Program-made: the position numbers and the translations under genes | IMG/VR virus record: IMGVR_UViG_3300003332_000015 | Location: 18,576 to 82,575 of that record | DNA: 64,000 nucleotides | Direction: 5' to 3' (one strand) | Origin: a virus | Part shown: positions 11,380-37,352 of the stretch, in pieces | Layout: every line of letters begins with the position of its first letter | How positions within the stretch are numbered: the stretch's first letter is position 1 | The notes under the pieces: generated by a model | The model's database searches: none | The model's input: only the letters and a program-made list of their open reading frames with translations | Told to the model about the DNA's origin: nothing

Positions 11380-11790
11380 TTATAACATGTTACTTGCTTT
11401 TTCTAAATACTCACATACACCCATTAAAATCTCTTCACGTATAGTATTATCAACTAGTAGATCTTCAACTCCCATATCAACTGCAAAACCTATATCTTGA
11501 GCTAAGTCATATGGAGACATAGGACCATAAAGTGCTAAGTTAGAAATTCCTGTAGATATTGGACTAAGTTTTCTAATATCAAAATTCTCATCTAATATTT
11601 TTATCTTGTCACCTTTCTCAAGAATGGTATTCCCAATAGGAGTGTCTTGTGTAATCTCAATAGTAAGACTATCTTCTTTCTTTTTATCTTTCTTACCAAC
11701 TTTTTTCTTACACGATACACAATACCCAGTCTGTATTAGATACTTACTACCACAGTCAGGACATTTTGCTGTTTTACTTGCTTCTCTCAT
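11380..11790 (-). CDS. Zinc-ribbon protein with ILExGDKI module
   Basis: 136 residues. The N-terminus has two CxxC pairs (CPDC ... CVSC) forming a zinc ribbon (about 9-30), then a Lys-rich linker. The recurring module LTIEITQDTPIGNTILEKGD (about 43-70) follows, then a helical C-terminal domain of about 65 residues not recognised elsewhere. The module's I-L-E fits the T4 gp21 cleavage rule, so it may be an internal head protein, although it lies between tube genes. It is unlike any tail protein I know. Confidence 0.55.
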   Translation of the reverse strand: MREASKTAKCPDCGSKYLIQTGYCVSCKKKVGKKDKKKEDSLTIEITQDTPIGNTILEKGDKIKILDENFDIRKLSPISTGISNLALYGPMSPYDLAQDIGFAVDMGVEDLLVDNTIREEILMGVCEYLEKASNML

Positions 11791-11801
11791 AATATTTTTC
11801 C

Positions 11802-12323
11802 TTAAATTATGTTATCATCTAATGCTAAGAAACCAAAAGTTACATTAACAATAATTGGATCACCACTACTATAATCAAAACTAATGTCTCCAACTGTCAT
11901 TGGAAAACAACCTTTAAAATTCCAACTACCAAAACCTGGTATAGGAATATTCTCTGGAGTAACTGCCCAAACTGTCATGTTTACTCTGTTGTTTGAAAGT
12001 ACATTATCAGGAGCAATAACTCCTGTATAACTATTTGCTACTTTATTTTTCCAAGCTACTAACCCTTTATATACAAGCCAGTTTCTATCAACTCTTAAAT
12101 CAAAACTAAATTCATTCGGTGCTTCAATCTTACCAGAAGGTTTTGTGATCTTCTGTGTTTTATGATGAACCTCATAAGTACTCGTCCCTGTTGCAGGAAC
12201 AGTAAAGTTTTGAATTCTTAAAAGAGTAGAAGTAATGTCGTCTATAAATGCTATAGGTTCAATTGATACATCAAATAAATTCGATAGTGCATCATCCCCC
12301 ATTTGATAAATTTTATCTACCAT
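11802..12323 (-). CDS. Major tail tube protein (gp19-like)
   Basis: 173 residues. The features LFDVSIEPIAFIDD, TVPATGTSTYEVHHKTQK and RVDRNWLVYKGLVAWKNK, then the C-terminal GDISFDYSSGDPIIVNVTF, follow the T4 gp19 plan in which hexameric rings stack into the inner tube. The start ATG (12323) is preceded by AAGGAGATATACTA. The upstream endonuclease gene reads through this promoter and ribosome-binding site and ends in TAATG on the start codon. The sheath gene lies just upstream of the endonuclease, the normal 18-19 order. Confidence 0.85.
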   Translation of the reverse strand: MVDKIYQMGDDALSNLFDVSIEPIAFIDDITSTLLRIQNFTVPATGTSTYEVHHKTQKITKPSGKIEAPNEFSFDLRVDRNWLVYKGLVAWKNKVANSYTGVIAPDNVLSNNRVNMTVWAVTPENIPIPGFGSWNFKGCFPMTVGDISFDYSSGDPIIVNVTFGFLALDDNII

Positions 12324-13264
12324 TAGTATATCTCCTTATTCTGTATATTAATATTAGTAAAAATTTCATCAAAAGGAATATTTTTATTTTGTTTTATTCT
12401 TAAAAAAGTATAATCCTTTAATTCATTACTACTCATAATTTTATTTTGTCGTTCTTGGTCTTTCTTTTTAAGTTGACCTTTTGCTGTAAAATGGTATGAC
12501 TCATCCCATTCCATAATTAATTTTAAATCATTATTAACATAATCTAAAAAATATCTATCTTTAGTACAGTACTCTTTACCTTTATTTCCGTATTGTCCAT
12601 TGGTGTTTAATCTTTCATCAAAGTAATCAAAAAATTCACAAGCGTAATGATTAAAACGTCCACCACCTTTAAGGTTAAGTTTTCGTTCCTTAGCTTTTTT
12701 TATACCCGATATTTCCTCATAAGTTTTACCTTTTTTGGCTTTACTCATTTTAAGTTTTATTTCTTGTGCTTTTTCAGAACCATACTCTTCTTCCATAGAT
12801 ACACCTTTTCTTTTAGTGTTTCTACCAAAAAGAGTTTTGGAAATTTTATTACGAACCTCTAATTTTTTAGCTGAATTATTTTTACCTTTTTGTCTTTCAG
12901 ACTGTTTTCTTTTAAATTCTTCTGTGTGTTTAGGGACTTTTATTAATCCTTGTTCCCTTAAACTAGTTTTATATTCTTCAGTACAAATTCTTGAACAAGT
13001 TTTATAATATCCTATTTTATAACTTTCATATACTACATTACCTTGACCACAAATTAAACATTTTTTATTTGTTTTTATATCATTAAGTATACAATAAATT
13101 CTCTCACCTATTCTTGATTCACTAGATAAAAAATGAGTTTCTTTATAAATTTCTTTTAGTCTTTCTTCAAAATTATTTCGTAAATATTTAGGGAGACCTG
13201 CATTGATACTCCCTGTTCGAGTAAAAGTATGTTTATCTGTTAAAAGAAACTCTTTAATAGTCAC
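12323..13264 (-). CDS. Homing endonuclease, Vsr/EDxHD-like, with N-terminal zinc motif
   Basis: 313 residues from GTG 13264. Residues about 65-105 hold CLICGQG...CSRICTEEY, a likely Zn finger. The middle (about 110-190) carries NUMOD-like basic repeats (TEEFKRKQSERQKGKNN). The C-terminus has the nuclease-like segment DLKLIMEWDESYH followed by a Lys-rich helix and FLRIKQN, resembling Vsr-fold/EDxHD homing endonucleases such as I-Bth0305I (inferred). Its last codons encode T-N-I-N-I-Q-N-K-E-I-Y across the late promoter and ribosome-binding site of the tube gene. A homologue is at 30019-31092. Confidence 0.65.
   Translation of the reverse strand: MTIKEFLLTDKHTFTRTGSINAGLPKYLRNNFEERLKEIYKETHFLSSESRIGERIYCILNDIKTNKKCLICGQGNVVYESYKIGYYKTCSRICTEEYKTSLREQGLIKVPKHTEEFKRKQSERQKGKNNSAKKLEVRNKISKTLFGRNTKRKGVSMEEEYGSEKAQEIKLKMSKAKKGKTYEEISGIKKAKERKLNLKGGGRFNHYACEFFDYFDERLNTNGQYGNKGKEYCTKDRYFLDYVNNDLKLIMEWDESYHFTAKGQLKKKDQERQNKIMSSNELKDYTFLRIKQNKNIPFDEIFTNINIQNKEIY
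12347..12360 (-). promoter_or_regulatory. Late-type motif variant before the tube gene
   Basis: TTACTAATATTAAT, one base longer than the consensus, 24 bases before the tube ATG and embedded in the 3' coding end of the endonuclease gene. Confidence 0.5.
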
Positions 13265-13267
13265 TTA

Positions 13268-14809
13268 CTATACGCCTATGACTTCACTCAAAATGGTGGT
13301 CTGTCCCACATTTACGAATTCAAGTACTATTCTTTCTGAATAAGGTGTTACTTGTATTCCAAGTGTATAAACAAATTTTCTAGCTGCTCTAGCTGCTCCG
13401 TCATTATTGTTTAAATCACATTGGATAATATAATCTGATAAAAGACCCGATGCTAAAATAGGATCCATTAAAGTTTCACCTTTTGAAACAGCTAGTCTTC
13501 TATGTAATTCGTCATTAAGTTTTACTATTTGATAAGTAAGTACACCTTTTAACATGTTAGAAATAATATAATCAAAAAGTCTTGCATGAGCAATCCAACT
13601 TGTATCTGATAATGAAAGAGGTGATTGTGCTGTTCTTTGTGATGTTATCATAACACCATAACTTGCATACTGTACAATAGGATTTATTCCAGCTTCATCT
13701 AATGATTGTAGAGTTGCCTCACTAGGATCGTATTCCATCTGTACAATACCAGCACCTAATTGTCCACCATGTTTATTTTCATCGATCCATGCTGGAGCAC
13801 CACCATTAAATATATTTGTCATCTGTGCATATTTTACACCAACTCTTCCAATTAAAGAAGTCCAAAAGTATGAGTTGTTATAAGTGTCTTTTACTTTTGC
13901 ATGATTCCAATAAAAAGCTAATCCTTTATTATTTATACTAAAACCATCTTTAGTTGTAATAGAAGATGCCGCATCTGAACCTGCTGGTAAAGCTAAAATA
14001 TAAGAAGCATACTTTTGGTATGTACTTCTTAATGTATCAAACAAAGCTTCTACACCAGCTATTGCTGTAGGATCCATAAATATGTCTGCTTTATATGTAT
14101 TTGACTGTTGAAAAAATGCCCAACCTAATGTTAACTCAGTTATTGTAATTGTTGCACCTCTGGCTCCATCTGAAAAAGCAACTTCAGCAGTGTCGTCAGT
14201 AAAAGATGTTATTGCTGATAGTGGATTAACTACTGCTTGAATATAATCATCACCATCTAATACATCTAATATATATATATTTTTTCCAAATCCATCTTTT
14301 GCTCCTACTACTAAAGACACATCATATGTTTCTATTAATACACTATCTTTATATAACTTTATAGTAAAAACCGAATTAGTATCATTATAAGATACTAATA
14401 CACCTAAGTCATCTACATATGGACTAGCTGCTGCAATAACGAAATGGTCTGTTACTAATGGAAAAGTAAAATCTTCAATTGTTGAAGGATCTTCACCTGC
14501 ACCAAAAACTGCTGATCCAGCATCAGATACTAAAACTCCACCTAATAATGCTGTTGCATCGTAAGGAGCTGATATCCATAAACCTGACTGTTTGTTATAC
14601 TGTATTGCTTCCCATACATCAGGGTAAGCTACAGATGGTTTACCAAATAAATCAATTATTCTTTTTTCTTGACCGGCATCTACGAAGATAGGAGTAGCTC
14701 CCCCTTTCCCGGCTCTTATTGTCATTGCACCAACAGATCCTTCTGTACCAATTACGGTAGAAGACTTGTCTATTTTGTCAACTGTTAATCTCCAACTATT
14801 TGAAGGCAT
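13268..14809 (-). CDS. Tail sheath protein (gp18-like)
   Basis: 513 residues. The N-terminus carries the T4/phage sheath signature: DKSSTVIGTEGSVGAMTIRA, then IDLFGKP and DVWEAIQYNKQSGLWISAP. The C-terminal domain (about 400-513) has DYIISNMLKGVLTYQIVK, a helical stretch and the typical ending RKFVYTLGIQVTPYSERIVL. These terminal domains hold the contractile lattice; the middle (about 85-230) is a variable surface insertion. It is preceded by a late motif whose inverted copy abuts the ribosome-binding site GGAG. Confidence 0.9.
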   Translation of the reverse strand: MPSNSWRLTVDKIDKSSTVIGTEGSVGAMTIRAGKGGATPIFVDAGQEKRIIDLFGKPSVAYPDVWEAIQYNKQSGLWISAPYDATALLGGVLVSDAGSAVFGAGEDPSTIEDFTFPLVTDHFVIAAASPYVDDLGVLVSYNDTNSVFTIKLYKDSVLIETYDVSLVVGAKDGFGKNIYILDVLDGDDYIQAVVNPLSAITSFTDDTAEVAFSDGARGATITITELTLGWAFFQQSNTYKADIFMDPTAIAGVEALFDTLRSTYQKYASYILALPAGSDAASSITTKDGFSINNKGLAFYWNHAKVKDTYNNSYFWTSLIGRVGVKYAQMTNIFNGGAPAWIDENKHGGQLGAGIVQMEYDPSEATLQSLDEAGINPIVQYASYGVMITSQRTAQSPLSLSDTSWIAHARLFDYIISNMLKGVLTYQIVKLNDELHRRLAVSKGETLMDPILASGLLSDYIIQCDLNNNDGAARAARKFVYTLGIQVTPYSERIVLEFVNVGQTTILSEVIGV

Positions 14810-14822
14810 TGTATATTTCTCC

Positions 14823-14862: not shown

Positions 14863-14876
14863 CAAATTGTTAATTT

Positions 14877-15578
14877 TTAGAAGTCTAACTCAACTTCATC
14901 AGTTAAATGATTAATTACAAATTCTAAAGCTTCATCATAATTATCAGTATCAAAATTATATGCTGAAGCAAAATTAAATACTAATGTTTCTGGTATAGTG
15001 ATATCTGTATTTGCTATTAAATTAAATGTTTCTATCTCTATATCTAAAGAAGAAGAATGTATCTTATTTCTTTCTAACCAATCGTTCTCATTATATTGTG
15101 GTTCAAATGACATTCCTGTATAACTTAAATGAGCTGCATATGAAACATCTTCGACATCAACAGTTACATAAGGTGCTAAAATAGTTTTATTATTTGCATC
15201 CCATGTTACATTTGTAAAAGCATATTTATTATCAAAAGAAGTGTGTGACCAAAAAGATACATCATAACTTAAAACCATTGGAGCAAATCTTATTTTAGTT
15301 TCTAAAGCATCAATATAAACACCAGTACTATAAGCTCCAGGATGCCATCTTGAGGCATGACCTAAGTCTATATCTTTGAGTTTAAAATTTAAAAATGGTA
15401 ATTCTAAATTACCTTTGTTTTGATCACTTCGTTTTCTAAAAGCATACTCATTAGAAGAGTATATAACACGAGTTTGGTCTCCTCCAAAAAACATATTTGC
15501 AAAATGTGTTATTAAAGTAAGATCAACCGCATATATAGTATTTAAAAAACTAGGATCATCATAATATCTTTGTGCCAT
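14877..15578 (-). CDS. Tail completion / sheath terminator-like protein
   Basis: 233 residues. No known motif is certain. Segments NLELPFLNFKLKDIDLG and IRFAPMVLSYDVSFWS are beta strands reminiscent of tail terminator and gp15/gp3-type connector proteins that bind the top of the sheath or tube. It lies 67 bases before the sheath gene, where T4-like phages place tail completion proteins. The role is inference from position and secondary structure. Confidence 0.45.
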   Translation of the reverse strand: MAQRYYDDPSFLNTIYAVDLTLITHFANMFFGGDQTRVIYSSNEYAFRKRSDQNKGNLELPFLNFKLKDIDLGHASRWHPGAYSTGVYIDALETKIRFAPMVLSYDVSFWSHTSFDNKYAFTNVTWDANNKTILAPYVTVDVEDVSYAAHLSYTGMSFEPQYNENDWLERNKIHSSSLDIEIETFNLIANTDITIPETLVFNFASAYNFDTDNYDEALEFVINHLTDEVELDF

Positions 15579-15596
15579 TGTTTACCTTAAAATAAT

Positions 15597-15935
15597 TTAT
15601 ATTCTTACCTTATCAAGAGTATAAATAAAATGAGCTATTAATTCTTCTTTAGCTTCTTTTATCATATCATTTATATTTCTATGACCAAATTCTTTAGCAT
15701 CTGCATCAGTAAAATTTTGTTTTGTCTTATATGAATACTGACCAAAAGCTAACATAATATTCTGTATATGTTCAACAACAGAAACATTGTTATCATCATA
15801 CATTAAATAAATAAATTCTTCTTTAAGTTTTTTTGATTCTGTAAGAATTTTTATTTTGTCCCCAGGTTCAAGAATGTTTTCACCTATTTTAATTTCTTGT
15901 GTTATTTCAATTAAATCTTTATCAACTTTTCTCAT
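15597..15935 (-). CDS. Small head-region protein with N-terminal ILExGDKI module
   Basis: 112 residues. After MRKVDK the module DLIEITQEIKIGENILEPGD occupies about residues 7-34. The remaining ~75 residues are a helical domain with no recognised family. The architecture (short basic N-terminus, module, unique C-terminal domain) matches the proteins at 16490, 35528 and 35831. The motif I-L-E followed by P-G could be a prohead-protease site, though Pro after the cut is unfavourable. Preceded by a late motif and AAGGAG. Confidence 0.55.
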   Translation of the reverse strand: MRKVDKDLIEITQEIKIGENILEPGDKIKILTESKKLKEEFIYLMYDDNNVSVVEHIQNIMLAFGQYSYKTKQNFTDADAKEFGHRNINDMIKEAKEELIAHFIYTLDKVRI

Positions 15936-15959: not shown

Positions 15960-16490
15960 TTTAAATATTGTGTATCCTACACTAACAGAAAAAGTAATAT
16001 CTAAATTATAATAGATACCTATATTAAACTTTTCTAATATAATAGTATTTATACCTATTCCTATTGTTGGTAAGGAGTAAATTCCATCAGGATTATTATG
16101 TTTATAAGTTAGCATAGGACTAAGAGATATAATCTCTGTTTTCATAAACTCTTTTAATTCTTTAGATAAGTCTGTAATACGTTTTTCAAGTACTTCTATA
16201 TTTGGTAATAACTTGTCATCAATACGTGTTGTAAGAGCATCTATGGTGTCTTGCTGTGTCAATGTGATGTCATACACTACATCATACTCTTCTTGTAATG
16301 TCTTATTATTGTCTAATGACTCACTTAAATTATCTTCAGCTTCCAAATATAAATTAGTCATTATGATGTAAGCATTTTTAAGATCAAAATAATCATTAGG
16401 TACACTTAATTCATACTCACCAATATTAATAACTTCTTGTGTAAATACAAAAGAAGTTAAAAATATAAATAAAATTAAAAATTTTTTCAT
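15954..16490 (-). CDS. Secreted coiled-coil/beta protein, possible outer-membrane lysis partner
   Basis: 178 residues. A clear signal peptide (MKKFLILFIFLTSFVFTQ, cleavage about residue 17) without a lipobox Cys. Then a coiled coil (about 45-115) and a beta-rich C-terminus ending with an aromatic residue, resembling a small outer-membrane-associated domain. The gene two upstream (17073-17426) encodes an inner-membrane coiled-coil protein, so together they could act as a spanin-like envelope-disrupting pair. No sequence hallmark of known spanins is present; structural alternatives remain open. Confidence 0.45.
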   Translation of the reverse strand: MKKFLILFIFLTSFVFTQEVINIGEYELSVPNDYFDLKNAYIIMTNLYLEAEDNLSESLDNNKTLQEEYDVVYDITLTQQDTIDALTTRIDDKLLPNIEVLEKRITDLSKELKEFMKTEIISLSPMLTYKHNNPDGIYSLPTIGIGINTIILEKFNIGIYYNLDITFSVSVGYTIFKY

Positions 16491-17080
16491 TATTGATTCT
16501 TATAACTGTCGTAAACAGAAAGACCAGTTCTTCTATATACTTCATCAGAAAAATCTTTCCATTGATCTTTGTCTTGAATATCTGTTATAAATTGTGTCCA
16601 ACCCATATCAAGTAAAGCATCCCATGCAACATCGTTATCTAATAAAACAGCTTCAAGTCTTTTAACATTACCAGCAGCTATATCAGTTATAACATAACCA
16701 CTAAATCCTGAATTCCATTTAGCTTTTTCTTTTAGTATTTTAACTTTGTCACCTTTTTCTAAAATAAAACTACCAATTTTTATGTCTTCGGTAATTGTTA
16801 TTAAATCTTCTTTTTTAATTTCTTTTTCAATTCTCATTATCTTTTCCTCCCACGGCATTCTTGGAAATGTATCTTTATAATCGACTACTTCATCCCACTC
16901 ACAATTTCTTTTTAAAAACGATAGAATAAGTCCTTTATTCCTATTTGCTTTTAAATCAATTACTGCTTTTCTTATTACTTTAGTATCATTACAATCAAAA
17001 TTGTATACTCTTCCATTAATATTTAATTTAAGTGAGTAATCTGTATAGACTAAAATATCTACATTAAATGGACTATCCAT
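16490..17080 (-). CDS. ILExGDKI-module protein with two possible starts
   Basis: 196 residues from ATG 17080, which overlaps the end of the previous gene. A second ATG at 16837 has an excellent ribosome-binding site (GGGAGGAAAAGATA) and gives a 115-residue protein starting MRIEKEIKKEDLITITED, exactly like the other module proteins, with the module at about residues 10-40 of the short form. The N-terminal extension is an acidic/aromatic domain of about 80 residues of unknown role. Long and short products may both be made. Confidence 0.55.
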   Translation of the reverse strand: MDSPFNVDILVYTDYSLKLNINGRVYNFDCNDTKVIRKAVIDLKANRNKGLILSFLKRNCEWDEVVDYKDTFPRMPWEEKIMRIEKEIKKEDLITITEDIKIGSFILEKGDKVKILKEKAKWNSGFSGYVITDIAAGNVKRLEAVLLDNDVAWDALLDMGWTQFITDIQDKDQWKDFSDEVYRRTGLSVYDSYKNQ

Positions 17081-17426
17081 CTATGTTCTTCTTTAGTATA
17101 TCAGCAACAGTCTTTTTTCTATTTGCCTGTTGATCTTCAATACTTTTAGTACTATCTTTTACACTGTCAACTTTTGCTTTACTTACTTTCAGTATTTTTT
17201 TATGTTCAATACTTTTTTCTTTAATAAGTTGAACTTCCTTACTCATTGCTTGTCTAATTTCTTTAGATGTTTCTACTTCTTTCTTAGCATCTTTAATCTT
17301 TTGTTTAGCCTTCTTTACATCTTCAGAATCTAACAAAGATAGATTATTCTTAACATACATAATCCCTAAAATAGAAACTATGATAAGACTTATTACTTCA
17401 ATAATTTTAATAATAGTTTTCTTCAT
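17073..17426 (-). CDS. Inner-membrane coiled-coil protein, i-spanin-like
   Basis: 117 residues: one N-terminal membrane helix (about 8-25, IEVISLIIVSILGIMYV), then a long Lys/Glu-rich coiled coil to the end (N-in, C-out by the positive-inside rule). This shape fits an inner-membrane spanin, but many phage membrane proteins share it. Its ATG overlaps the stop of the broken endonuclease (ATGA), and the late motif lies directly before the ATG, leaving no Shine-Dalgarno site. Confidence 0.45.
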   Translation of the reverse strand: MKKTIIKIIEVISLIIVSILGIMYVKNNLSLLDSEDVKKAKQKIKDAKKEVETSKEIRQAMSKEVQLIKEKSIEHKKILKVSKAKVDSVKDSTKSIEDQQANRKKTVADILKKNIDG

Positions 17427-17439
17427 ATTATATTAGTAA
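17427..17439 (-). promoter_or_regulatory. Late-type motif abutting the 17426 start codon
   Basis: TTACTAATATAAT immediately before ATG. Transcription from this motif would yield leaderless or near-leaderless RNA, or the gene is read from upstream RNA. Confidence 0.45.
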
Positions 17440-17646
17440 CAAGATTAACTTTTTTAGGTCTACCAAATGTCCATCCATTATTTAAATAATTTTGTAAATC
17501 AGTTAGTTTAACAATCTTTCCAATACAATCTTTATTTATATATCGTCTCCCTTTATTTACAGCAGGTTTCCTTCTCTTACTTTCTGACATATGTCTTTTA
17601 CTTTCAGAACTCCGCTTTTTACCTTTAAGAGCTATAGATAACCTTT

Positions 17647-17668
17647 GTCTTGTCATAGTCTTGTCATA
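17647..17668. repeat. 11-bp tandem duplication
   Basis: GTCTTGTCATA present twice in direct succession; responsible for the frameshift in the endonuclease gene at 17423-18099. Confidence 0.95.
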
Positions 17669-18160
17669 TCACTAACTATTCTTCCTTTCTGAGATTCTGA
17701 TATCTTATGTTTATGTTCTTCACTCATATGTTTATTATAGTAATGATGATTTTTACCTTTTTTAGCTTCTGATATTTTTTTACGTGTTTCAATAGTACAT
17801 GGTGGTTTATCTTGACGTAACCTAGCGTGCTGTTTAGAGGTTAACTTAGGAGAATATTTTACATTTTTTGACATAAACATAAAAGCATAAGTCATTGACC
17901 CTCCATAAATCTTCCAAAGAATTAGATGAGCAATGAAATGTTCTCTTGCTGTAAGACGAATTATATTTTCAGGTTCATCACTTCCACCTAAAGCTCTAGG
18001 TATGATATGGTGTTTTTCTGTATAAGTATCTTTTGGGATTTTTCTTAATTTTCTTGAATCGATAAATTTGTCGTATCTAATTTTATGAATAGAATTCATT
18101 GTACTAACCTTTTTAATTTTTAAGTCACTTCAATGACTGTTAATATATTATTAAAAGTTA

Positions 18161-18223: not shown

Positions 18224-18817
18224 TTATTCTGTTGACGCTACTTCTGCAGGTTCACTTGTTGCAGGTTCAGTTTCAAGCGGAAAGACTTGAATTTTATCAC
18301 CAGGTTCTAAAATAAAATCTGTATCTGGTAATCTTACTTCCTGTTCAACATCAATGATGATTGCATCAGCATCAAAAGCTGCTTGAGCTGATTCTAAACC
18401 AGGATCTTTTATTTCGTCCTCTTCTTCTTTCACTTTGTCCTTGTCTTCTAACATTTTGTCTTTCTCCTCGATTGACTCATCTTTACTTAATTTTTTAGAA
18501 ATAGTTGTCATTGCTTTATCCAACTCTTTCATAAATTCATTAGCTATTTTATCATCTGATGTAGCAAGACCTTTTAATAGTTGAAGTCCTTTCATCTGGG
18601 ATTCATTATCACCACCAAAATTACCTTGCATATCTTTTACTATTTTTTTAGTATCTACTTTTTCTTTTATTTTTTCCATCTTTTCTCTCCATTGTGTATA
18701 ACAGACAGCAACTCTTTGTTCCTGTGAATCAAACTCTTTATTTTTAGTTAATGTACTTATACATCGACTTATAAAATCTTTTTCTTTTTCAGCTTTATTA
18801 GGTTTTGGTAAAGGCAT
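18224..18817 (-). CDS. Head-associated protein with FISRC motif and C-terminal ILExGDKI module
   Basis: 197 residues. The N-terminus MPLPKPNKAEKEKDFISRC, followed by DSQEQRVAVCYTQW, is the 'PKP...FISRC...QR.AVCY.QW' motif found in many phage head-maturation proteins and protease-associated proteins. The middle is acidic, lysine-rich coiled coil. Near the C-terminus (about 150-180) lies a variant module DVEQEVRLPDTDFILEPGDK. The combination suggests a prohead core or scaffold-associated protein, processed by the prohead protease. Inference from motifs; no enzyme activity proposed. Confidence 0.6.
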   Translation of the reverse strand: MPLPKPNKAEKEKDFISRCISTLTKNKEFDSQEQRVAVCYTQWREKMEKIKEKVDTKKIVKDMQGNFGGDNESQMKGLQLLKGLATSDDKIANEFMKELDKAMTTISKKLSKDESIEEKDKMLEDKDKVKEEEDEIKDPGLESAQAAFDADAIIIDVEQEVRLPDTDFILEPGDKIQVFPLETEPATSEPAEVASTE

Positions 18818-18821: not shown

Positions 18822-19004
18822 TTATCCTATTAAATTTCTTTGCATCGTATTTATAAATTGACTCATAAATTCTTTATCATTAGGTAATACATCTAAAACT
18901 GCTTGTGCAAATTGTGATCCACCGTTAGGATTCCTCATAAGAAGTTTTACCATATTTTGCATAATAATATCATCTTCTTTTAGACTTTTCTTTATTACTT
19001 TCAT
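18822..19004 (-). CDS. Small head-region protein, unknown
   Basis: 60 residues, helical. The N-terminus MKVIKKSLKEDD contains an L-K-E triplet that fits the T4 prohead-protease rule (L/I-x-E). It overlaps the ADP-ribosyltransferase-like gene by one base and is 4 bases from the FISRC gene, so all three are probably co-translated. Confidence 0.5.
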   Translation of the reverse strand: MKVIKKSLKEDDIIMQNMVKLLMRNPNGGSQFAQAVLDVLPNDKEFMSQFINTMQRNLIG

Positions 19005-20806
19005 TACATAAATTTCCTTAATATACCTATTAAAATTTTAATTATTGGTTTTGGTATTGGTAATGAGTCTGATCTATTTTCCATTTGATCTAACATATAA
19101 GTATAATAAGCTTTATTAGCTATAAAATACTTTGTCATTAAACCAGCTGGAGTATCTACTACAATACCACCATCTTTTTCCACTGAGTGTACTACATCAC
19201 CAAATATATTTTTTATTCTTGGTATCAGAGTTTTAACAAATAATTTAGGAGGTTGTTTAAATTCTCCTCCACTTCTTTTCTCTAACATAATAGCTAGATT
19301 CTGTGTCATTACTCCCCATATAGGATCTCGACCTACTTCTACTTGCATTTGTGTAAATGCACCGATAATAGATTTAGGAGAACCAAAAGTTGCTACTAAT
19401 TTATACATACCACTATTTTGTTTTCTAGCAGCTATTCCACCTGTTTTATCTCCAAAGAAAGTCCATGCTACTGCACGACTTTCAAACTTACCTTGATCCC
19501 AAGAAGCACCTACTGCTTTTTGGTATGAGTCTCTGAAATTAGAATATAGAGCATCTTGCTCTTGTTTTGATAAATCATAGTATTTAAAACTTTCATTAAG
19601 TACATGAGAATATTTAATATTATAAAGTCCATCAATAATACTATCTATATAAACAGATTCATTAAGAGGAGGTTCTGTTGAAATTATAAATCTTTTAGCT
19701 GTTTTAATTTCACCTGTTTTCCATCTAGGAATAGATGTTCCCATTGTACCAATATCTTCTTTCCATTCACCACCTGACCAAATACCGTCATGCCATATTC
19801 CACCAGAAAAAATACCACCTAGAAAATTACCGTAACTCCAATCTCCACCACTAAAATTTCCTTTGTGCCATTTACCTTTTTTCCATATACCATTTAACCA
19901 AACATCACCGTACCATTGACCTGATACCCAAGTACCCTTATTCCAAATAAATTCTTTATCTTCTGATATAATAATTTCAGCTTCTTCTACTTTAGCTTTC
20001 ACAAACCAAGGAAAATCTTTTTGAAAATCTTTAAGACTATACCCTTCAGGGGTATCAATAGACTTTACAGTACCTTTAAAATAGTCTAATAAAATTTCAG
20101 CTTCATCTGCTCTTGACTGTACTTTACCCATGTCCTTTGCAGGTATCCATCCACCATTAGGTAGTTTTTTACCTGTAGAAATTACACCGTCACTTCCTAC
20201 TTCATAGTCAATAATTTTACCGTCATAATCAGTTTTAGCATATTCAAAAGGAATAGCAGTATCATAAGCATATGAAACTACAACATTACCATCATGATTA
20301 CCGGTAAATATAATTCCTCTTACCCCTCGAATACTACATATACCATTTTTTACATAAGAATCAACAAAATTATTATAAGCAACGTCTGCTGAGTAAGATG
20401 GTTCATCTAATGTTTTCTCTAACATCTTTGACCAATTAAATATATTTCTAGGTAAATCAATAGTATCATGATAAATCCTATAATGATCAATTAACTGGTC
20501 ATTCAATGTATATTTATCACCAAAAACAGATTTCGAAATATTATAATCAAAAATAAGTAAATTTTTAGGGTTAATACGACACTTTAATAATGTATCACCA
20601 TAGTGTGTCATATTACTTTTTAGTTGTGAAGAAAGATCATATGTTAAATAAAATCCTTTTCCATACATTGATCCATACCCAGGTTTAAATCCAGTATCAA
20701 TAATTCCTAGAGCATCTCCCATACTTGTTCTATGATAAGCAAGTAAATAATTACTATGATATGTTATGGATTCTTTTAATACTGTTCCAAAATCTATTTT
20801 TCTCAT
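19004..20806 (-). CDS. PARP-like ADP-ribosyltransferase fused to pentapeptide W/F-x-x-G-x repeats
   Basis: 600 residues. Residues about 20-190 resemble the PARP-type transferase core: AYHRTS (H25) for NAD binding, GYGSMYGKGFYLTYD (Y53) matching the PARP G-x-G-K-G-x-Y signature, and VVVSYAYDTAIPFEY near 175-190, where PARPs have NEYVVYD. The usual catalytic Glu position is Asn here, so activity may be mono-ADP-ribosylation or lost. Residues about 288-348 are twelve W/F-x-x-G-x pentads. The C-terminal ~220 residues form an unrecognised domain. The N-terminus ...FGTVLKES has an L-K-E, like the gp21-cleaved leader of T4 Alt, an injected transferase. Confidence 0.6.
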   Translation of the reverse strand: MRKIDFGTVLKESITYHSNYLLAYHRTSMGDALGIIDTGFKPGYGSMYGKGFYLTYDLSSQLKSNMTHYGDTLLKCRINPKNLLIFDYNISKSVFGDKYTLNDQLIDHYRIYHDTIDLPRNIFNWSKMLEKTLDEPSYSADVAYNNFVDSYVKNGICSIRGVRGIIFTGNHDGNVVVSYAYDTAIPFEYAKTDYDGKIIDYEVGSDGVISTGKKLPNGGWIPAKDMGKVQSRADEAEILLDYFKGTVKSIDTPEGYSLKDFQKDFPWFVKAKVEEAEIIISEDKEFIWNKGTWVSGQWYGDVWLNGIWKKGKWHKGNFSGGDWSYGNFLGGIFSGGIWHDGIWSGGEWKEDIGTMGTSIPRWKTGEIKTAKRFIISTEPPLNESVYIDSIIDGLYNIKYSHVLNESFKYYDLSKQEQDALYSNFRDSYQKAVGASWDQGKFESRAVAWTFFGDKTGGIAARKQNSGMYKLVATFGSPKSIIGAFTQMQVEVGRDPIWGVMTQNLAIMLEKRSGGEFKQPPKLFVKTLIPRIKNIFGDVVHSVEKDGGIVVDTPAGLMTKYFIANKAYYTYMLDQMENRSDSLPIPKPIIKILIGILRKFM

Positions 20807-20854: not shown

Positions 20855-21655
20855 TTACTTTTTCTTCTTTTGTTTTTGCCATTGTTTAAGAGCTGCTTGT
20901 CTTAATTTTTCTCTAGTTTCTTTAGATACAATTTTACCTTTATTTGATTTTGATATTTTAAAACGTGTTTCCTTTGTTATAACTCTTCCTTTACTTATTT
21001 CACTTATTCTTTTCTTTTTCTTATCAGCTACATCTTTACCATATCTTTCTTCATATGAAATACCTTTTTGTGATTTACTTATTTTCTTTTTTGATTTATC
21101 AGAATGATGTTTACCTGTCATACCAGGACTAGGATTATCTTTTTTAGAATCACTTATTTTCTTTTTAGTTTCTTCTTATCGAGGTCTCCCTTTTAAAGAA
21201 CTACTAACTTTTTCTTTCCACTTTTTAGCACCTTCTTTGCCCATTGTCTCGATATGTGTTTTACCTTTTTGTATTTTACTAAGATGATTTTTAACTTCTT
21301 TAGAACGTATTTTTCCTCTATTTGAATCACCAATTTTTTTCTTATGTTCTTCGCTCATTTCTATACTTTCTTTTAATCTTTGGTATTGTTTAGATGTTAA
21401 AGTATTAATATGTCTACCGTCTTGTGATAGTAACCAAAAAGCATATGTCATTTGTTTTCCATAAGCTTTCCACAAAATTAGGTGAGCGATATAGTGTTCT
21501 CTTGCTGTTAAGATTATAAGATTTAAAGGTTCATTAGAGCCACCCAAGGATCTTGGGAGAATATGATGTTCTTCTGTATAAAAATTTTTTGATCTTTTTC
21601 TAATAGGACGTGATTGGATAAATTTGTCGTAGCGGATTTTATGAATATTCTTTAT
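20855..21655 (-). pseudogene. HNH homing endonuclease inactivated by stop codon and start loss
   Basis: A single reading frame spans 267 codons and aligns with the other HNH endonucleases. It has KIRYDKFIQSRPIRK, TEEHHILPRSLGGSN and LTAREHYIAHLILWKAYGK, then NUMOD3 repeats. The codon where the relatives have ATG is ATA (21653-21655), after a good AGGAG. An in-frame TAA (21176-21178) lies between SSLKGRPR and EETKKKISDSKK. Both lesions are point changes, so this is a recently decayed copy. The nearest usable start is a TTG inside the HNH core (21547). Confidence 0.8.
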
Positions 21656-25956: not shown

Positions 25957-26385
25957 TTATTTAATGTTAATCGTTTTCGATTTCATCTCTTCTTTCGCAG
26001 GTACTTCAATTAGTAACATTCCATCTTTTAATGCTACATTAATTTTATCTAATTGATAACGGCTTATCGGTACATAAAATTTTCTTCTTACTGAAGAATG
26101 TTTTATTCCTTGTTGAAGAATAGTGTATCCTTCTTTTAGTCCTTCTTTTAAAGGATCAATATTTAAAAATAAATAATCACCTTCAGATTTAAGACTAATC
26201 TCATCTTTTGAGATTCCTGCTACTGCCAATTTAATAATCATGTCTTTTGATTCGTCATTTAAAACGACATCACATGGAGGAAAATTTCCAGTATAAATTG
26301 GGGTATTTGTTGGAAACCTTACTGAATCCAAATCTTCAAAAATTGCATTAAAAAAATCTAATGCATTGTCTAAGTTAGCTACCAT
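25957..26385 (-). CDS. Small heat shock protein, Hsp20/alpha-crystallin family
   Basis: 142 residues. The alpha-crystallin domain (about 50-138) includes DMIIKLAVAGISKDEISLKS, a beta region, FYVPISRYQLDKINVALKDG and the ending LLIEVPAKEE. Hsp20 is a frequent gene of T4-like marine phages and is thought to help assembly or protein stability. It is followed by a strong terminator and preceded by a homing endonuclease. AAGGAGTGTACC lies before the ATG. Confidence 0.9.
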   Translation of the reverse strand: MVANLDNALDFFNAIFEDLDSVRFPTNTPIYTGNFPPCDVVLNDESKDMIIKLAVAGISKDEISLKSEGDYLFLNIDPLKEGLKEGYTILQQGIKHSSVRRKFYVPISRYQLDKINVALKDGMLLIEVPAKEEMKSKTINIK

Positions 26386-26435: not shown

Positions 26436-27323
26436 TTATTTTCTTGTGGTTCCAAACCACCACCCATCTAAAGGTAGTTCCTGTGCATCAATTCTTTTAT
26501 TAACTACACCGTTTGTTATTCCTTTTTTACCTTTATTTTTACTAGGTTTACCTAGCTTACCTAAAGATATTTTATTTCCTATTTCTTGTTTTTCTTTTTC
26601 AGTTCTATTATTCCATATTTTCTGACTACCATTAGAAATATTTAGTCGATTTTGTTTACTACGTACAACACCTTTTGCATTTTGTTTACCTTTCATACCT
26701 TTACTTCTAAGTTTAGACAATCTATCCCTTTCCTGTTTAGACGTGTTAATCCATTGTAATTTTGCAGCTTTACTAATTTTATTTCTTCTTATTTTTTCTA
26801 CAATAGGATTAACAACCTTATTCAACTGTGCAATAGACATTCTATTTTTTTGTTCCTCAGTACGTGGTAAATTCTTTCTATTACGTTGTGCTTTTTGTTG
26901 TACATCTTTTTCTTTAAAAGGAGAGTTAATAGAAGCCCATTTCTTTTTTCGAGTCTTCATTTCCTTTCCAAGTTCTACTCCATATATCTCCTCATAAGTT
27001 TTACTTTTTTTTAAAAAAGACAAATATTTTATACTTTCCTCTCTTAGTTTAGAATATTGTCTAGAAGTTAATCTATAGTTATATCTATTAAACCCTTGCA
27101 TCATATAAAAAGCTTGAGCCATTTTCCCACCATAAACTTTCCAAAGAATCATATGAGCTATAAAATGTTCTCTTGCCGTTAATATAATTATATTTTCTTT
27201 TAAGTCATTTCCACCAAGAGACCTTGGAAGAATATGATGATTTTCTGTATAAGTATCTTTTGGGATTGTTCTTAGTTCCCGTGACTTAATAAATTTATTA
27301 TACTTATCTTTATATATCTCCAT
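26436..27323 (-). CDS. HNH homing endonuclease with NUMOD3 repeats, full length
   Basis: 295 residues. HNH core TENHHILPRSLGG, then LTAREHFIAHMILWKVYGG; after it a long basic NUMOD3 region and a C-terminal domain ending in DGWWFGTTRK. It is the longest intact member in the window. Its ATG (27323) directly follows the late motif (TACTAATATAAT-ATGGAG), so a transcript started there would be leaderless. Inserted between the UvsY-like gene and hsp20. Confidence 0.85.
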   Translation of the reverse strand: MEIYKDKYNKFIKSRELRTIPKDTYTENHHILPRSLGGNDLKENIIILTAREHFIAHMILWKVYGGKMAQAFYMMQGFNRYNYRLTSRQYSKLREESIKYLSFLKKSKTYEEIYGVELGKEMKTRKKKWASINSPFKEKDVQQKAQRNRKNLPRTEEQKNRMSIAQLNKVVNPIVEKIRRNKISKAAKLQWINTSKQERDRLSKLRSKGMKGKQNAKGVVRSKQNRLNISNGSQKIWNNRTEKEKQEIGNKISLGKLGKPSKNKGKKGITNGVVNKRIDAQELPLDGWWFGTTRK

Positions 27324-30018: not shown

Positions 30019-31092
30019 TTAAACTACCTCTGTCTTTATTAAATTTATTTCTTTACAGTAAGTACTAATATCGTTTTCTCTAATACGAATAAATTTAAAT
30101 TGTGGTAAAAATTGTTCAATTCTATTTTGTCTAATAATATCTTTTTCTTTTAGTTTATCTTGTTTAAAATGTCCTTCTTCATCCCATTCGATAATTAATT
30201 TTTTATCAAAATTAATATAGTCTGGCCAATAACCTAATTCTTCAATTAAGTATTCACCATTTCCATATACAGCATATCTACCTTTAGTATTTAAAATCTT
30301 ATCTAGTAATTGAAAAAATTCACAAGCTTTTTTATTGTATGCTGGAAATCCAATTTGATAGTTATTCTTAATTTCTTTAGCTCTTTGTATAGTAGCAATT
30401 CTACTTAAATATTCTTTTTGTTCTTTACTTCTTATTTTATTAGTATTTCCTTCACTAATTTTATTGGAAGTTTCCAATGCTTTTTCTTTACCATACCTAT
30501 CTATATAATTTTTATTTCTGAATTCCTGCCATTCTTCATAATAAACTTTATTGTTATTCTGCATAATTTTAGCAGCTTTTTCTTTACGTTTATATAATGT
30601 ATCTATACTACCTTTCCAAGTAACTCCTTTTTTAGATTGTGAAAGAGTTACTTTCATTTTTTCCGCTTTATTAACACCATATCTTTCTTCCCAAGTTTTA
30701 CCTTTATATTTTTTACTTATAATAGATTTACTTACTTTAACTTTAGACTCTTTTGAATTCTTTCTACCTTTCCCTCTAATAGAATTATGTTGTTTTTTAC
30801 ATGAGTTTAAAAAACAAGTTTTACTATACCCATACTTCATTGTTTTATATTGTAGTTTATTTGTATCACAAATAGGGCAGTATAATTGAATTTCTATATC
30901 ATTTAATATACAATAAATTCTTTCAAATAAAGAGGAATCGTCACTTAAAAAAGATGTATAAAAATACAAACTATTTTTAATTTCTAATCTATTATATATA
31001 AATTCTTTTAAATTACCTTTAAGTCGCCCTTTTATATCATAAGCATTATTAGTAATCCAAGTATATAATTGTTTTTTACTATAATTAATCAT
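30019..31092 (-). CDS. Homing endonuclease, Vsr/EDxHD-like
   Basis: 357 residues, homologous in layout to the 12323-13264 protein. Zn-binding CPICDTN...CFLNSCKKQH (about 70-100), NUMOD-like repeats (about 105-240), and a C-terminal nuclease-like domain with NFDKKLIIEWDEEGHF and FKFIRIREN. The E-W-D-E-x-x-H motif is shared by both copies. Its ATG overlaps the neck gene's stop (one base) and its stop abuts the next start, so it is cleanly embedded between two co-directional genes. Confidence 0.7.
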   Translation of the reverse strand: MINYSKKQLYTWITNNAYDIKGRLKGNLKEFIYNRLEIKNSLYFYTSFLSDDSSLFERIYCILNDIEIQLYCPICDTNKLQYKTMKYGYSKTCFLNSCKKQHNSIRGKGRKNSKESKVKVSKSIISKKYKGKTWEERYGVNKAEKMKVTLSQSKKGVTWKGSIDTLYKRKEKAAKIMQNNNKVYYEEWQEFRNKNYIDRYGKEKALETSNKISEGNTNKIRSKEQKEYLSRIATIQRAKEIKNNYQIGFPAYNKKACEFFQLLDKILNTKGRYAVYGNGEYLIEELGYWPDYINFDKKLIIEWDEEGHFKQDKLKEKDIIRQNRIEQFLPQFKFIRIRENDISTYCKEINLIKTEVV

Positions 31093-33834: not shown

Positions 33835-33845
33835 TGAGACTCCTT

Positions 33846-33863: not shown

Positions 33864-33891
33864 TAGTGTCATTTTTTTAATAAAATATCAT

Positions 33892-33920: not shown

Positions 33921-33944
33921 TTATATTAAAATACGAAATGATTT

Positions 33945-35354
33945 TTAAAGGTTATTTAATTTCATTCTTACAAGATAATTAGAATTAAGTACTTTTGAAT
34001 CACCGAAGTGGAAAAGACCCTTTTCTGAATATCCTCTAGCATACTCTAAAGTTGTTGATTCATAAAGTGGAATCAATGAACCGAATAGAATAGCCATATC
34101 AGCTGATTCGTTTGGATTTCTCCAGATACCTAACATCTCATCAGCAGGAATAATACTTGTTGGTGCCTGATATACAGGTTTTCCTAAGAAAGTACCAATT
34201 CTATAAATTCCAATTTCTGGTTGTAATCCAGTTGCATCGAACTTATCATGTAATGTTAAGTATGAACAAGCATCTACACCAGCAACAATAACATTTACTC
34301 CACCTCTTTGAACTGCATTGTAAATAGTTTTACCAGCAGCAGCAATAGTACGAGTAAGTGACTGTGCGTGAGCGATTTCACTATCAGCACCAGCAGCAGC
34401 AAAGTCTGCATTAAAAGTAACAAGTGCATTCTTTAAAGAATGTCTATAAGCCATTTTAACAGCAGCGAAATCTAATGATTTCTTTAACTCGTCAGCAGCT
34501 CCAGCAACAAGTGAACTTTCTACATCTATGTCTAAAGTTGTTCCAAGTAATAACTCAGTCATCTTTGTCCATGAAACATAAAGTGGGTGTGGTTTAGCTC
34601 TTAACTGATAATCTCTTAACTGTAGTTCAACAGACTGAATTTCTCCAGTAGTTGCTTCAGAATCAAAATTGTAAGCCATTAATACTACGTCACCACCACC
34701 TATAGCGGGATTAAAAGTAATCTGTGTTACACCAGTATCATAATTAACTGATCCAGCTGAAAGTAATGTACCTACGATATTCCCAGCACCATCATCAACA
34801 GCAACTGGTTCTTCGTTTACAAAGATTTTAACTGAAAATGGTCTAAGAGGAGCATTTGCTACTGTTAAATCATAAACTGTTTGTGCGCCAGCATCTGTCA
34901 TTTCTTCTTCTTCAACTTCTGATGAGTATCTATAAGAAGGACTTTCGTGTGTTACTGTATCTATTGTAGCACCTCTTTTAGAAGCTGAGTAAACAGGACT
35001 TAAATAGTAAACGCTATCTCTAGCTGTTACCATTGGATAATCACTGAATATTTCACCTCTAACACTATTAGGATAACCTAATCTTACAATTCTTAATACA
35101 TTTTCAGGTGTTGTCTGAAAAGCATTTGAAATCTGTGTTTCTGTTAGTGCTTGTAAATGTTGTGCTTGATTCTCTAGAACAATAGCAGCACCTATAGCTT
35201 TGTTCTCATCTTTATCTCTAAGTTCTTTTAGACCTTCACCTACGCCTTTTTCTTTAGACCAAATCTCAAAGAGTTCGTTTCCTCTTTGTTTTCTTTCTGA
35301 AAGTAACTCAGCTCTTTCTTCAAGAACTACTTTCTCTTCCATTTTTTTACGCAT
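33945..35354 (-). CDS. Major capsid protein (gp23-like)
   Basis: 469 residues from ATG 35354 (AGGAGTG upstream). A longer frame to 35426 lacks a good start. T4 gp23-type signature: N-terminal delta region with AIVLENQAQHLQALTETQIS, where L-T-E fits the gp21 cleavage rule at about residue 72. The mature shell domain follows, opening with LRIVRLGYPNSVRGEIFSDY and RDSVYYLSPVYS. C-terminal KVLNSNYLVRMKLNNL. It forms the HK97-fold shell. The ribosome-binding site lies in the 3' arm of a 9-bp hairpin. A strong terminator follows. Confidence 0.9.
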   Translation of the reverse strand: MRKKMEEKVVLEERAELLSERKQRGNELFEIWSKEKGVGEGLKELRDKDENKAIGAAIVLENQAQHLQALTETQISNAFQTTPENVLRIVRLGYPNSVRGEIFSDYPMVTARDSVYYLSPVYSASKRGATIDTVTHESPSYRYSSEVEEEEMTDAGAQTVYDLTVANAPLRPFSVKIFVNEEPVAVDDGAGNIVGTLLSAGSVNYDTGVTQITFNPAIGGGDVVLMAYNFDSEATTGEIQSVELQLRDYQLRAKPHPLYVSWTKMTELLLGTTLDIDVESSLVAGAADELKKSLDFAAVKMAYRHSLKNALVTFNADFAAAGADSEIAHAQSLTRTIAAAGKTIYNAVQRGGVNVIVAGVDACSYLTLHDKFDATGLQPEIGIYRIGTFLGKPVYQAPTSIIPADEMLGIWRNPNESADMAILFGSLIPLYESTTLEYARGYSEKGLFHFGDSKVLNSNYLVRMKLNNL

Positions 35355-35358
35355 TATT

Positions 35359-35404
35359 ACACTCCTAAATGCTTTATAAAATTTATGTTTTTTTATAAGA
35401 GTGT
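35359..35404 (-). promoter_or_regulatory. Hairpin hiding capsid gene ribosome-binding site
   Basis: Minus strand ACACTCTTA (35396-35404) pairs with TAGGAGTGT (35359-35367), nine pairs with one G-T. AGGAG, the capsid gene Shine-Dalgarno site, is in the 3' arm. Confidence 0.55.
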
Positions 35405-35495
35405 GGTGAATTTCAACTTTCCACAATTCTTTTTTTTTCTATATACTTTTTAATATCTTATTTATAAAATATTACGCTTTTTTCATTTTATTTAT

Positions 35496-35508
35496 ATTGT
35501 ATTAGTAA
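35496..35508 (-). promoter_or_regulatory. Late-type motif variant before capsid gene
   Basis: TTACTAATACAAT, 142 bases before the capsid ATG. The leader it would create contains the RBS-hiding hairpin. Confidence 0.5.
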
Positions 35509-35527
35509 CTGTTTAAAAAAAGGTTAC

Positions 35528-35818
35528 TTACATCATACTTGTATCAGCAAAAATATCATATGGCTCAATATCATTAAGTATATTCTTATAAGTTTCAACT
35601 ATTTGAATTAAATTTTGTTCAGTATTATCAAAACCTCTAGGTCCTTCAAACCATTGAATTATAGATTGAGTTATATTATCAAACTCAGTATCATATACTT
35701 TTCCAGTATCTACTCTACCTGACTCAATTATTAAAGCAATTCGATCACCTGCTTCTAATACTGTTTCACCAACTGTCACTTCTTCTTTTATTTTAATTAA
35801 ATTTTTGTTATTTTTCAT
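35528..35818 (-). CDS. Small head protein with ILExGDKI module
   Basis: 96 residues. MKNNK then the module NLIKIKEEVTVGETVLEAGD (about 6-25, followed by R-I-A-L-I); the remaining ~65 residues are unrecognised. V-L-E-A is an especially good match to the T4 gp21 site (x-E followed by small residue). Placed between the capsid and scaffold genes, in keeping with a core/internal protein. Confidence 0.6.
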   Translation of the reverse strand: MKNNKNLIKIKEEVTVGETVLEAGDRIALIIESGRVDTGKVYDTEFDNITQSIIQWFEGPRGFDNTEQNLIQIVETYKNILNDIEPYDIFADTSMM

Positions 35819-35830
35819 TATATTTCCTTT

Positions 35831-36241
35831 TTATATAAAAGAGAGTTGTTTAGCTTTAACTGCAAAATAGAAATACATACCTGAAGATGTAAGAACAATT
35901 ACATCATCATTAACTTCATCATACTGTTCAATTTGATCTATATCATTCCAAGCTATACCAACTTCAAATGATTTTGTTCCATAATAAAAATGTCCCATAT
36001 TTTTAGTTTCATACCAATCAATTTTGAATGGTTTATCAAACTTAATATAAGTACCTTTACCACTTCCTATATTATATTCAGTAGCTCCAACAGTATACTT
36101 TTCTATCACAGATTTAAAAGTTTCAATATCCATAGGTTTTAACTGTTCATTAATTAAACGTATTTTATCACCTTTTTCAAGAATAATATCACCTACTTTA
36201 ACTTCACTTTTAATTTCTATTAATTCGTTTTTCTTTCTCAT
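35831..36241 (-). CDS. Small head protein with ILExGDKI module
   Basis: 136 residues from ATG 36241 (AAAGGAACTATA upstream), giving MRKKNELIEIKSEVKVGDII; a frame to 36265 has no better start. The module spans about 6-32, and the remaining ~100 residues form a beta-rich domain (KPFKIDWYETKNMGHFYYG). Same layout as 35528 and 15597. No known family. Confidence 0.6.
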   Translation of the reverse strand: MRKKNELIEIKSEVKVGDIILEKGDKIRLINEQLKPMDIETFKSVIEKYTVGATEYNIGSGKGTYIKFDKPFKIDWYETKNMGHFYYGTKSFEVGIAWNDIDQIEQYDEVNDDVIVLTSSGMYFYFAVKAKQLSFI

Positions 36242-36267
36242 TATAGTTCCTTTAAATATGAGCATAC

Positions 36268-36297
36268 TAAAACTCTTTTGTCTTAAGACAAAAGAGT
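36268..36297. terminator. 13-bp perfect palindrome, likely bidirectional terminator
   Basis: ACTCTTTTGTCTT/AAGACAAAAGAGT (36272-36297). On the minus strand it is followed by TTTAG. It lies 24 bases after the 36321 gene. Confidence 0.65.
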
Positions 36298-36320
36298 AAA
36301 AGTCTACTAATATTCTTTAT

Positions 36321-36599
36321 TTACGCTGAAGCTCTATTAGCTACAATAACAATTACATCATCAACTGCGATAACATAAGTAGTGTCTTCAGTAATAGTTA
36401 CTTTCCCAGCCGCTGGGAAAGTAATTACTGCGTCTCCAGTTACATCAACACCAGCTCTTAAAATCTGTACAACAGCAGCAAGGTCGTAATCAACTTGAAA
36501 GTCAATTGTAATTGCCCCATCTGTATCATCTTGTGCAACGGCAACATACTTGTAGCCGAATGAAACTCCGTTTGTAGGGCGAGTTTGAATTACACTCAT
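36321..36599 (-). CDS. Small beta-rich head or decoration protein
   Basis: 92 residues, Val/Thr/Ala-rich, no Cys or Trp, short beta strands (VTITEDTTYVIAVDDVIVIV). This suits a capsid decoration, head-stabilising or head-fibre base protein. Followed by a strong palindrome, so it is likely transcribed to high level. Unknown family. Confidence 0.5.
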   Translation of the reverse strand: MSVIQTRPTNGVSFGYKYVAVAQDDTDGAITIDFQVDYDLAAVVQILRAGVDVTGDAVITFPAAGKVTITEDTTYVIAVDDVIVIVANRASA

Positions 36600-36623
36600 T
36601 GTATTTCTCCTTTAAATTCTAAA

Positions 36624-37352
36624 TTATAAATCTATAGGCTTAGTCATATCAAAAGTTGCTATAACATTTTGATTATGAATAAGTTCTACTTCATCTTGAT
36701 ATGAATTAAAATAAATTCTATATTTTTTATTATATGAGTCAAAAGCTTGCTCATCATAATGGCTTTCTTTAATTAGTTTTTTTTTTTCAGAAACTAATAT
36801 AATTTTATCACCTTTCTCAAGTATAATATCTGTACCTGGTATTGGTGTGTCTTCCTCAACTGTGATAATTTCTTCGTCTTTTTTAGAATCTTTATCATCT
36901 TTAGCATCGTCTTTAGCGTCTGCTTTACGATCATTATCTTTTTTCTTATCATCAGCTTTCTGTTTAGCTTTTTCTTTTTCTCTATCATCTGCTTTGTCTG
37001 TATTAGCAGCCGTTGCTTCTTTTTTCTTATCGTCTTTTTTGTCAGGATCATCATCATCTTTTTTATCAGAATCTTTTTTATCCTTATCATCTTTATCTTT
37101 ATCATCTTTTTTGTCATCTTTTTTGTCATCTTTTTTGTCATCAGCTTCATCGATAACAACTTTTTTAGTATCAGAATCCTCACGAATACCCATACCGTTT
37201 AACATGTCAACAACTTCATCAAAAGCAATATTATAAATCTGTGCTACCATAGAGGAAGCATCTTTAAAATTAAGACCATCTTCTTGTACAAAATCTAAAA
37301 AAGCCTCTTTAACATCTTTATCAAAAGATTTTTCTTTAATTATTTTTCTCAT
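36624..37352 (-). CDS. Prohead core-type protein with KKDD repeats and ILExGDKI module
   Basis: 242 residues. N-terminal ~70 residues helical (MRKIIKEKSFDKDVKEAFLD, with an I-K-E triplet). Then about 90 residues of Lys/Asp repeats (KKDDKKDD type), encoded by a 12-base tandem unit, then the module VEEDTPIPGTDIILEKGDKI (about 160-190) and a C-terminal domain. Very charged and extended, as prohead core proteins gp67/gp68 are. Two bases after the protease-scaffold gene. Confidence 0.6.
   Translation of the reverse strand: MRKIIKEKSFDKDVKEAFLDFVQEDGLNFKDASSMVAQIYNIAFDEVVDMLNGMGIREDSDTKKVVIDEADDKKDDKKDDKKDDKDKDDKDKKDSDKKDDDDPDKKDDKKKEATAANTDKADDREKEKAKQKADDKKKDNDRKADAKDDAKDDKDSKKDEEIITVEEDTPIPGTDIILEKGDKIILVSEKKKLIKESHYDEQAFDSYNKKYRIYFNSYQDEVELIHNQNVIATFDMTKPIDL
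37093..37143. repeat. Tandem 12-base repeats encoding K-K-D-D
   Basis: The plus strand repeats GTCATCTTTTTT (K-K-D-D) at least three times here. A nearly identical tract is in the neighbouring scaffold gene (37675-37750). Confidence 0.7.

Follow-up and report, generated by a model that had tools for sequence, protein, structure and literature searches.

Background

Why would seven otherwise unrelated late proteins of one uncultured phage carry the same short module? The question is raised by a window of 64,000 nt (the whole stretch of DNA analysed here, to which positions refer unless a contig or locus is named), which is part of the 146,575-bp IMG/VR virus record IMGVR_UViG_3300003332_000015 of a T4-type myophage. 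A sequence-only reading of this window had described a ~28-residue module in seven late open reading frames (ORFs) and proposed that it is a capsid-targeting and processing tag, cut after I-L-E. We hold with high confidence that the module is genuine and is shared among virion-associated late proteins. Our best explanation, to which we give about even credence, is that it is a transferable head-targeting tag, a ~28-residue beta-meander that is usually removed by a gp21-type prohead protease at a terminal L/I-x-E. The targeting part of the earlier proposal agrees with the head-gene interval in which module genes lie, with the gp21-type protease, and with an encapsulated-ferritin cargo, while its I-L-E cut is the weaker part.

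In T4, the prohead protease gp21 cleaves after L/I-x-E, propeptides of 10-19 residues direct the internal proteins (IPs) to the core, and propeptides are possible at either end of Alt (PMC9026906). Under our explanation, diverse proteins would enter the prohead during its assembly because they carry the tag, which probably docks on the core or the inner shell; the gp21-type protease would usually cut at the L/I-x-E at the end of the tag, and the released cargo would be ejected from the capsid or act inside it.

Seven module copies in the late region

All seven reported copies were present, each on the minus strand, as are the structural genes given below. A hidden Markov model (HMM) built from them and run against the six-frame translation of the window retrieved exactly those seven ORFs (E 2e-16 to 3e-13; next match 0.97), and leave-one-out profiles, in which six copies were used to find the seventh, recovered it at E 1.6e-13 to 3.3e-7, while the strongest match other than a copy scored 0.65-3.3. 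Searching the full record yielded the same seven copies and no more, all within 26 kb of the late region.

The module had been described as joined to C-terminal domains, mostly after a short MRK-type start, and this is true of about half of the copies, in which a short MRK or MKN start comes immediately before the module. Three are N-terminal, namely those at 15834..15923 (ORF 15597-15935, 112 aa), which follows MRKVDKD and ends in ILTE, at 35720..35809 (ORF 35528-35818, 96 aa), and at 36143..36232 (ORF 35831-36241, 136 aa; start MRKK, module end LINE), whose structure was modelled. The copy at 16724..16813 in ORF 16490-17080 (196 aa) joins them if an internal ATG is used, which lies at codon 82, before the module, behind a strong Shine-Dalgarno sequence (GGGAGGAAAAGATA-ATG). 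The description fails for the other three. In ORF 18224-18817 (197 aa), the copy at 18272..18367 lies near the C-terminus, preceded by a QR..CY..WR domain and a helical domain, the latter linked to the module in six genomes; ORF 11380-11790 (136 aa), located between the tail-tube gene 11802 and gene 10762, encodes a zinc ribbon followed by the module (11584..11673) and ~68 residues of cargo; and ORF 36624-37352 (242 aa), immediately after the protease gene, has a long form of the module (36783..36878; IPGTDIILEKGDKI) at residue ~162, after a Lys/Asp-rich linker.

A predicted beta-meander confined to one phage clade

To gather relatives, IMG/VR was scanned for the module and for degenerate DNA patterns, and profiles were run record-wide; together, these searches gave ~50 module copies on about 15 distinct IMG/VR contigs of a single uncultured clade, whose portal and capsid protein are of the T4 type and whose protease is of the gp21 type. 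Contig G002 (147 kb) has 11 HMM matches, including one short remnant and one weak partial match, followed by G007 with seven copies, G010 and three near-identical relatives with six each, G005 with five strong ones, and G003, G004, and G006 with three to four each. All contigs examined for gene content hold homologs of the portal, protease, capsid, sheath, or tube genes of this phage, and exact-pattern scans of the viral collection found matches in this clade only. Among 84,980 prokaryote species, no genome held an exact match to the module. Cultured phages yielded nothing when searched with it, and targeted searches of the PDB, plasmids, and prokaryote genomes gave no module match; the portal profile likewise found no match in genomes.

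The module comprises a hydrophobic strand, E/D-[VI]-[RK]-[IV], G or PGTD, and then [IV]-[IV]-L-E-x-G-D-[KR]-[IF]-x-[IV]-L, with the L conserved in 50, the G and the D in 49 each, and the E in 47 of 51 aligned copies. Its predicted fold is a compact meander of four beta-strands: AlphaFold2, supplied with 46 copies, gave four short strands with a core predicted local distance difference test (pLDDT) score of ~95, and a model of the ferritin-like protein of G002 has the same four strands at pLDDT ~95 behind a linker below 50. Placement varies: the module is N-terminal after M-K/R in many proteins, others have it mid-chain, and several end exactly with it (e.g., G003 6141-6392, ending KIKILN, and G006 10079-10705, ending QFKVL). 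A good Shine-Dalgarno sequence and an ATG stand just ahead of many of the mid-chain copies, so shorter products are possible. Within genomes, synonymous sites of the module are near saturation and nonsynonymous differences are 0.25-0.46 in most cases, so selection acts on the protein; the same values rule out a DNA or RNA element and a recent duplication.

Searches of Pfam, PHROGs, and PDB sequences and with Foldseek returned no significant profile or structure match for the module. Matches to P450 and SH3 folds were insignificant, and identity with TrkA_C / RCK_C was rejected at 13.9-15 bits, against a Pfam cut-off of 27. The earlier statement that no description of the family was known agrees with these searches, and the module strings were absent from the literature searched. 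Could the copies then be convergent beta-hairpins (xLExGDxI) that share neither origin nor function? The string ILExGDKI is found in many unrelated phage proteins, ~117-aa proteins among them, and the weak TrkA_C resemblance also favors convergence; yet those proteins are without the rest of the module, and profile statistics contradict the idea, as the similarity spans ~28 residues and leave-one-out E-values are as low as 1e-13. In addition, strong matches are limited to one phage clade, and the slot after the tube gene, occupied in G000 and G001 by an intact module gene, retains a decayed 35-residue remnant in G002 and G008 (remnants at this tube/tail slot: L027:6498-6602 and L061:3927-4031). 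We regard convergence as highly improbable.

Candidate protease sites at the module end

The gene at 37354..38922 encodes a gp21-type prohead protease (PHROG 207, E 3e-12) whose C-terminal half is acidic and scaffold-like, and the HMM of the clade's proteases matches T4 gp21 at E 1.7e-10 over the stretch that contains the His and Ser motifs, which makes this protein a candidate processing enzyme for the module proteins. The co-occurrence with such a protease that the sequence-only reading named as a check was found in 8/8 contigs holding both portal and capsid genes. Its specificity can be approached through the major capsid protein (Gp23 family; 33945..35354 from the likely ATG start; Pfam Gp23 E 4e-7). 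In the capsid proteins of the clade, L-T-E is invariant in 8 relatives (residues 70-72 in this phage), at the place that matches SFLTE-AEIGG at residue 65 of T4 gp23, which is the T4 cut site; the same protease specificity is therefore plausible.

Where, then, might the module itself be cut? For the I-L-E first proposed, an I or L two positions before together with the E is present in 35/50 copies, which fits the L/I-x-E motif, and the E is lost in 4/51 aligned copies, being replaced by G, H, or T; we rejected a cut there as the main function. A better candidate site is the L/I-x-E at the module end. Such a motif straddles the end in 30/42 copies with cargo behind, compared with 6.0 expected when the following 30 residues were shuffled (maximum 16 in 20,000 simulations), the effective number of independent junction cases being smaller because the copies share ancestry. 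In this window, five of the six copies with sizeable cargo behind have a junction site (ILDE, ILTE, ILKE, LIIE, and LINE).

The same residues could be explained if the module were never removed and served permanently as a docking domain, at the core or the interior of the virion, with the terminal L/I-x-E a mere edge of the fold. Consistent with this, the conserved columns (L, E, G, D, and alternating hydrophobics) look structural, I is equally predominant in columns outside and inside the candidate sites, and C-terminal copies end the protein, leaving no room to release a tag. However, C-terminal copies look complete even though they lack the trailing E, which the fold therefore does not require, and the excess of junction motifs over expectation likewise argues against a mere edge. 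T4 Alt, with propeptides at either end, also provides a precedent for C-terminal removal (PMC9026906). We judge permanent docking unlikely.

Cargo exchange and ferritin-like proteins

A transferable tag would be met on and off its cargo, and five cargo families are found both tagged and untagged. The gene-28378 family is tagged, at the C-terminus, only in G010; the bacterial ferritin cargo is tagged in G007 and untagged in G004 (58% identical) and G003; the cargos of ORFs 35528 and 11380 have untagged homologs in G003 and G006, respectively; and the fifth family consists of W-G repeats, which occur with and without the module. Other domains are shuffled around the module as well. The N-domain before the module in 16490-17080 is related to that of the G007 ferritin protein (27% identity, E 2e-4) with a different cargo behind, and the zinc ribbon and the helical domain are likewise exchanged.

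Two further observations concern these families. The late region of G010 (G010:26417-50427; L131-L133) has >10 genes with tandem G-T-W-x-x-G repeats. Separately, untagged cargo homologs start with MRR or MRK, mostly followed by [LIV]-K-E (MRRIKLKE, MRRTNKIKE, and MRKVKE; loci L030:6925-7461, L030:10886-11092, L055:12338-12586, and L054:41-574), and this start is possibly a short alternative tag. As a general second tag, the MRR..[LI]-x-E start was rejected: it is striking in untagged cargo homologs, and its genome-wide excess is not significant (p 0.087).

Two cargos are ferritins. The G007 gene at 15065-15907 encodes a complete non-heme ferritin (Pfam 4e-26), whose best match of solved structure is a bacterial non-heme ferritin (9e-21), and the G002 gene at 36398-36754 encodes an encapsulated-ferritin homolog that is closest to PFC_05175 (3e-17) and to the ferritin portion of the virus-like particle from Pyrococcus (6e-17) and also matches TM1526 and the Myxococcus encapsulin cargos EncB and EncC (~2e-3). 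In the latter protein, the module forms the last ~27 residues, i.e., a C-terminal tail. As we read the alignments, both phage ferritins appear to keep the E and E..H positions that bind metal.

Gene position and competing roles

Among the contigs with both portal and capsid genes, 7/8 have one or more module genes in the gap from portal to protease or in that from protease to capsid. In this window, the interval is bounded by the portal protein of the T4 gp20 family (38985..40814; Pfam Portal_T4 E 3e-14) and includes, by gene order, a small conserved gene without the module (36321..36599) that stands between the protease and capsid genes of the clade. In the T4 gene order, the same slots hold the core genes 67/68 and the scaffold gene 22. 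Tagged proteins might accordingly be prohead core components of the gp67, gp68, or gp22 kind, with the module serving as a core-core contact and most of each protein degraded at maturation. Besides the T4 gene positions, many of the products are small and acidic, some are Lys/Asp-rich, and G003 and G006 have two strong copies and one degenerate copy within single proteins, three repeats with charged linkers that resemble a multivalent scaffold. Yet a ferritin with apparently intact metal sites would be unlikely as throw-away scaffold, and the matches to gp67 are weak and probably driven by composition (E ~0.002-0.003), which leaves a core role improbable in our view.

Module genes have a second hotspot, flanking the neck, sheath, and tube genes, which in this window include the tail sheath gene (13268..14809; PHROG 23 E 1e-28), the recognizable tube gene 11802, and the neck gene 14877 nearby. 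This hotspot would be expected if the module fixed accessory proteins to the outer surface of the virion, as head decoration or at the neck or tail, and one copy does sit before the W-G repeats that recur in many G010 genes. Against an outer location, the encapsulated-ferritin cargo points inwards, the junction protease sites suit an internal protein, and Pfam, PHROG, PDB, and Foldseek-type searches revealed no similarity to known decoration proteins; outside attachment therefore seems to us a poor prospect.

We acknowledge that several observations weigh against a removable head-targeting tag. Several module genes are near the neck and tail genes rather than in the head cluster. The cargo proteins are mostly acidic, unlike the T4 internal proteins. 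Relatives also have ferritin homologs that lack the tag, which is thus not obligatory for this cargo. In G021 (155 kb), whose capsid protein is 51% identical, the module is not detectable, and the shared ancestry of the junctions lowers their weight. Two further relatives (capsid proteins 47% identical) have weak module variants only, in the same slots.

Further features of the late region

Contig G021 has four small genes upstream of the portal gene (L149:2302-4486) that start MK[RSK]R[KQL]TFVSNSSSSSF, and this repeated N-terminal motif is possibly a different tag system. In the window, a 600-aa protein with W-G repeats (19004-20806; start MRKIDFGTVLKES) has an N-terminus with weak resemblance to PARP/ADP-ribosyltransferases (Pfam E 0.006, under the cut-off) and could be an Alt-like internal protein. 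A small heat-shock protein (HSP20, E 6e-10) is encoded at 25957-26385 in the structural region, and the HSP20 gene of G002 lies between the protease and capsid genes. Homing-endonuclease-like ORFs, some apparently broken, were recognized by eye at scattered places in the late block (8868-9506, 12323-13264, 17423-18099, 20855-21547, 26436-27323, and 30019-31092). A run of queuosine-pathway-like genes at 49951-52506 (QueC, GTP cyclohydrolase, QueE, and QueD, by eye) suggests 7-deazaguanine DNA modification. The portal and capsid proteins have distant matches only in cultured phages, and a single-protein portal query against viral contigs gave no match.

Relation to known systems and implications

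The proposed tag resembles the T4 capsid targeting sequences of IPI, IPII, IPIII, and Alt in that one tag is borne by several unrelated late proteins, a gp21-type protease is encoded in the same genome, and an L/I-x-E stands at the boundary of tag and cargo, judged here from sequence alone. It differs from the T4 tags (10-19 residues, N-terminal on the IPs) in its length of ~28 residues, its predicted fold, its placement at either end or in the middle of the protein, and its presence in up to ~11 genes, and the module HMM found nothing significant in a 42-kb T4 stretch with ipI and genes 20-24 (ipII, ipIII, and alt lie outside it). The T4 core proteins gp67, gp68, and gp22 occupy the same slots between portal, protease, and capsid genes, but have no convincing sequence similarity to the tagged set, which includes ferritins and zinc ribbons. 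In phiKZ and SPN3US, as would be the case here, a gp21 homolog is present and propeptides are removed by a protease from many head and ejection proteins, with phiKZ head-protein cuts following S/A-x-E (PMC9026906); a shared folded module in these phages is not described in the literature searched.

Encapsulin cargo is loaded by C-terminal targeting peptides (PMC8346489), and the likeness lies in a modular tag on ferritin-like cargo, C-terminal on the encapsulated-ferritin homolog in one case (G002). An HK97-fold shell would be common to encapsulin loading and the proposed phage-head loading. Encapsulin peptides are short linear motifs read by an encapsulin shell, unlike a predicted folded meander in a phage with a T4 Gp23-family capsid, and no encapsulin motif was seen on the G002 ferritin-like protein. 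The module would thus work like T4 and encapsulin cargo signals, yet should not be filed with either class, because its size, fold, position, and shell set it apart. A bolder and rather doubtful extension is that these phages use their heads like encapsulins, an exchangeable folded tag loading a rotating set of proteins, including iron-handling ferritins, that the protease frees for storage or ejection.

If the tag reading is true, a phage capsid with ferritin-type proteins inside would connect T4 internal proteins with encapsulin cargo, and the tag, being folded and functional at either end, could serve as a useful loading handle. A sequence tag would then reveal the head-packaged proteins of uncultured phages straight from DNA, proteins that are otherwise hard to identify because they are fast-evolving and unannotated, and what these phages carry into their hosts would become testable.

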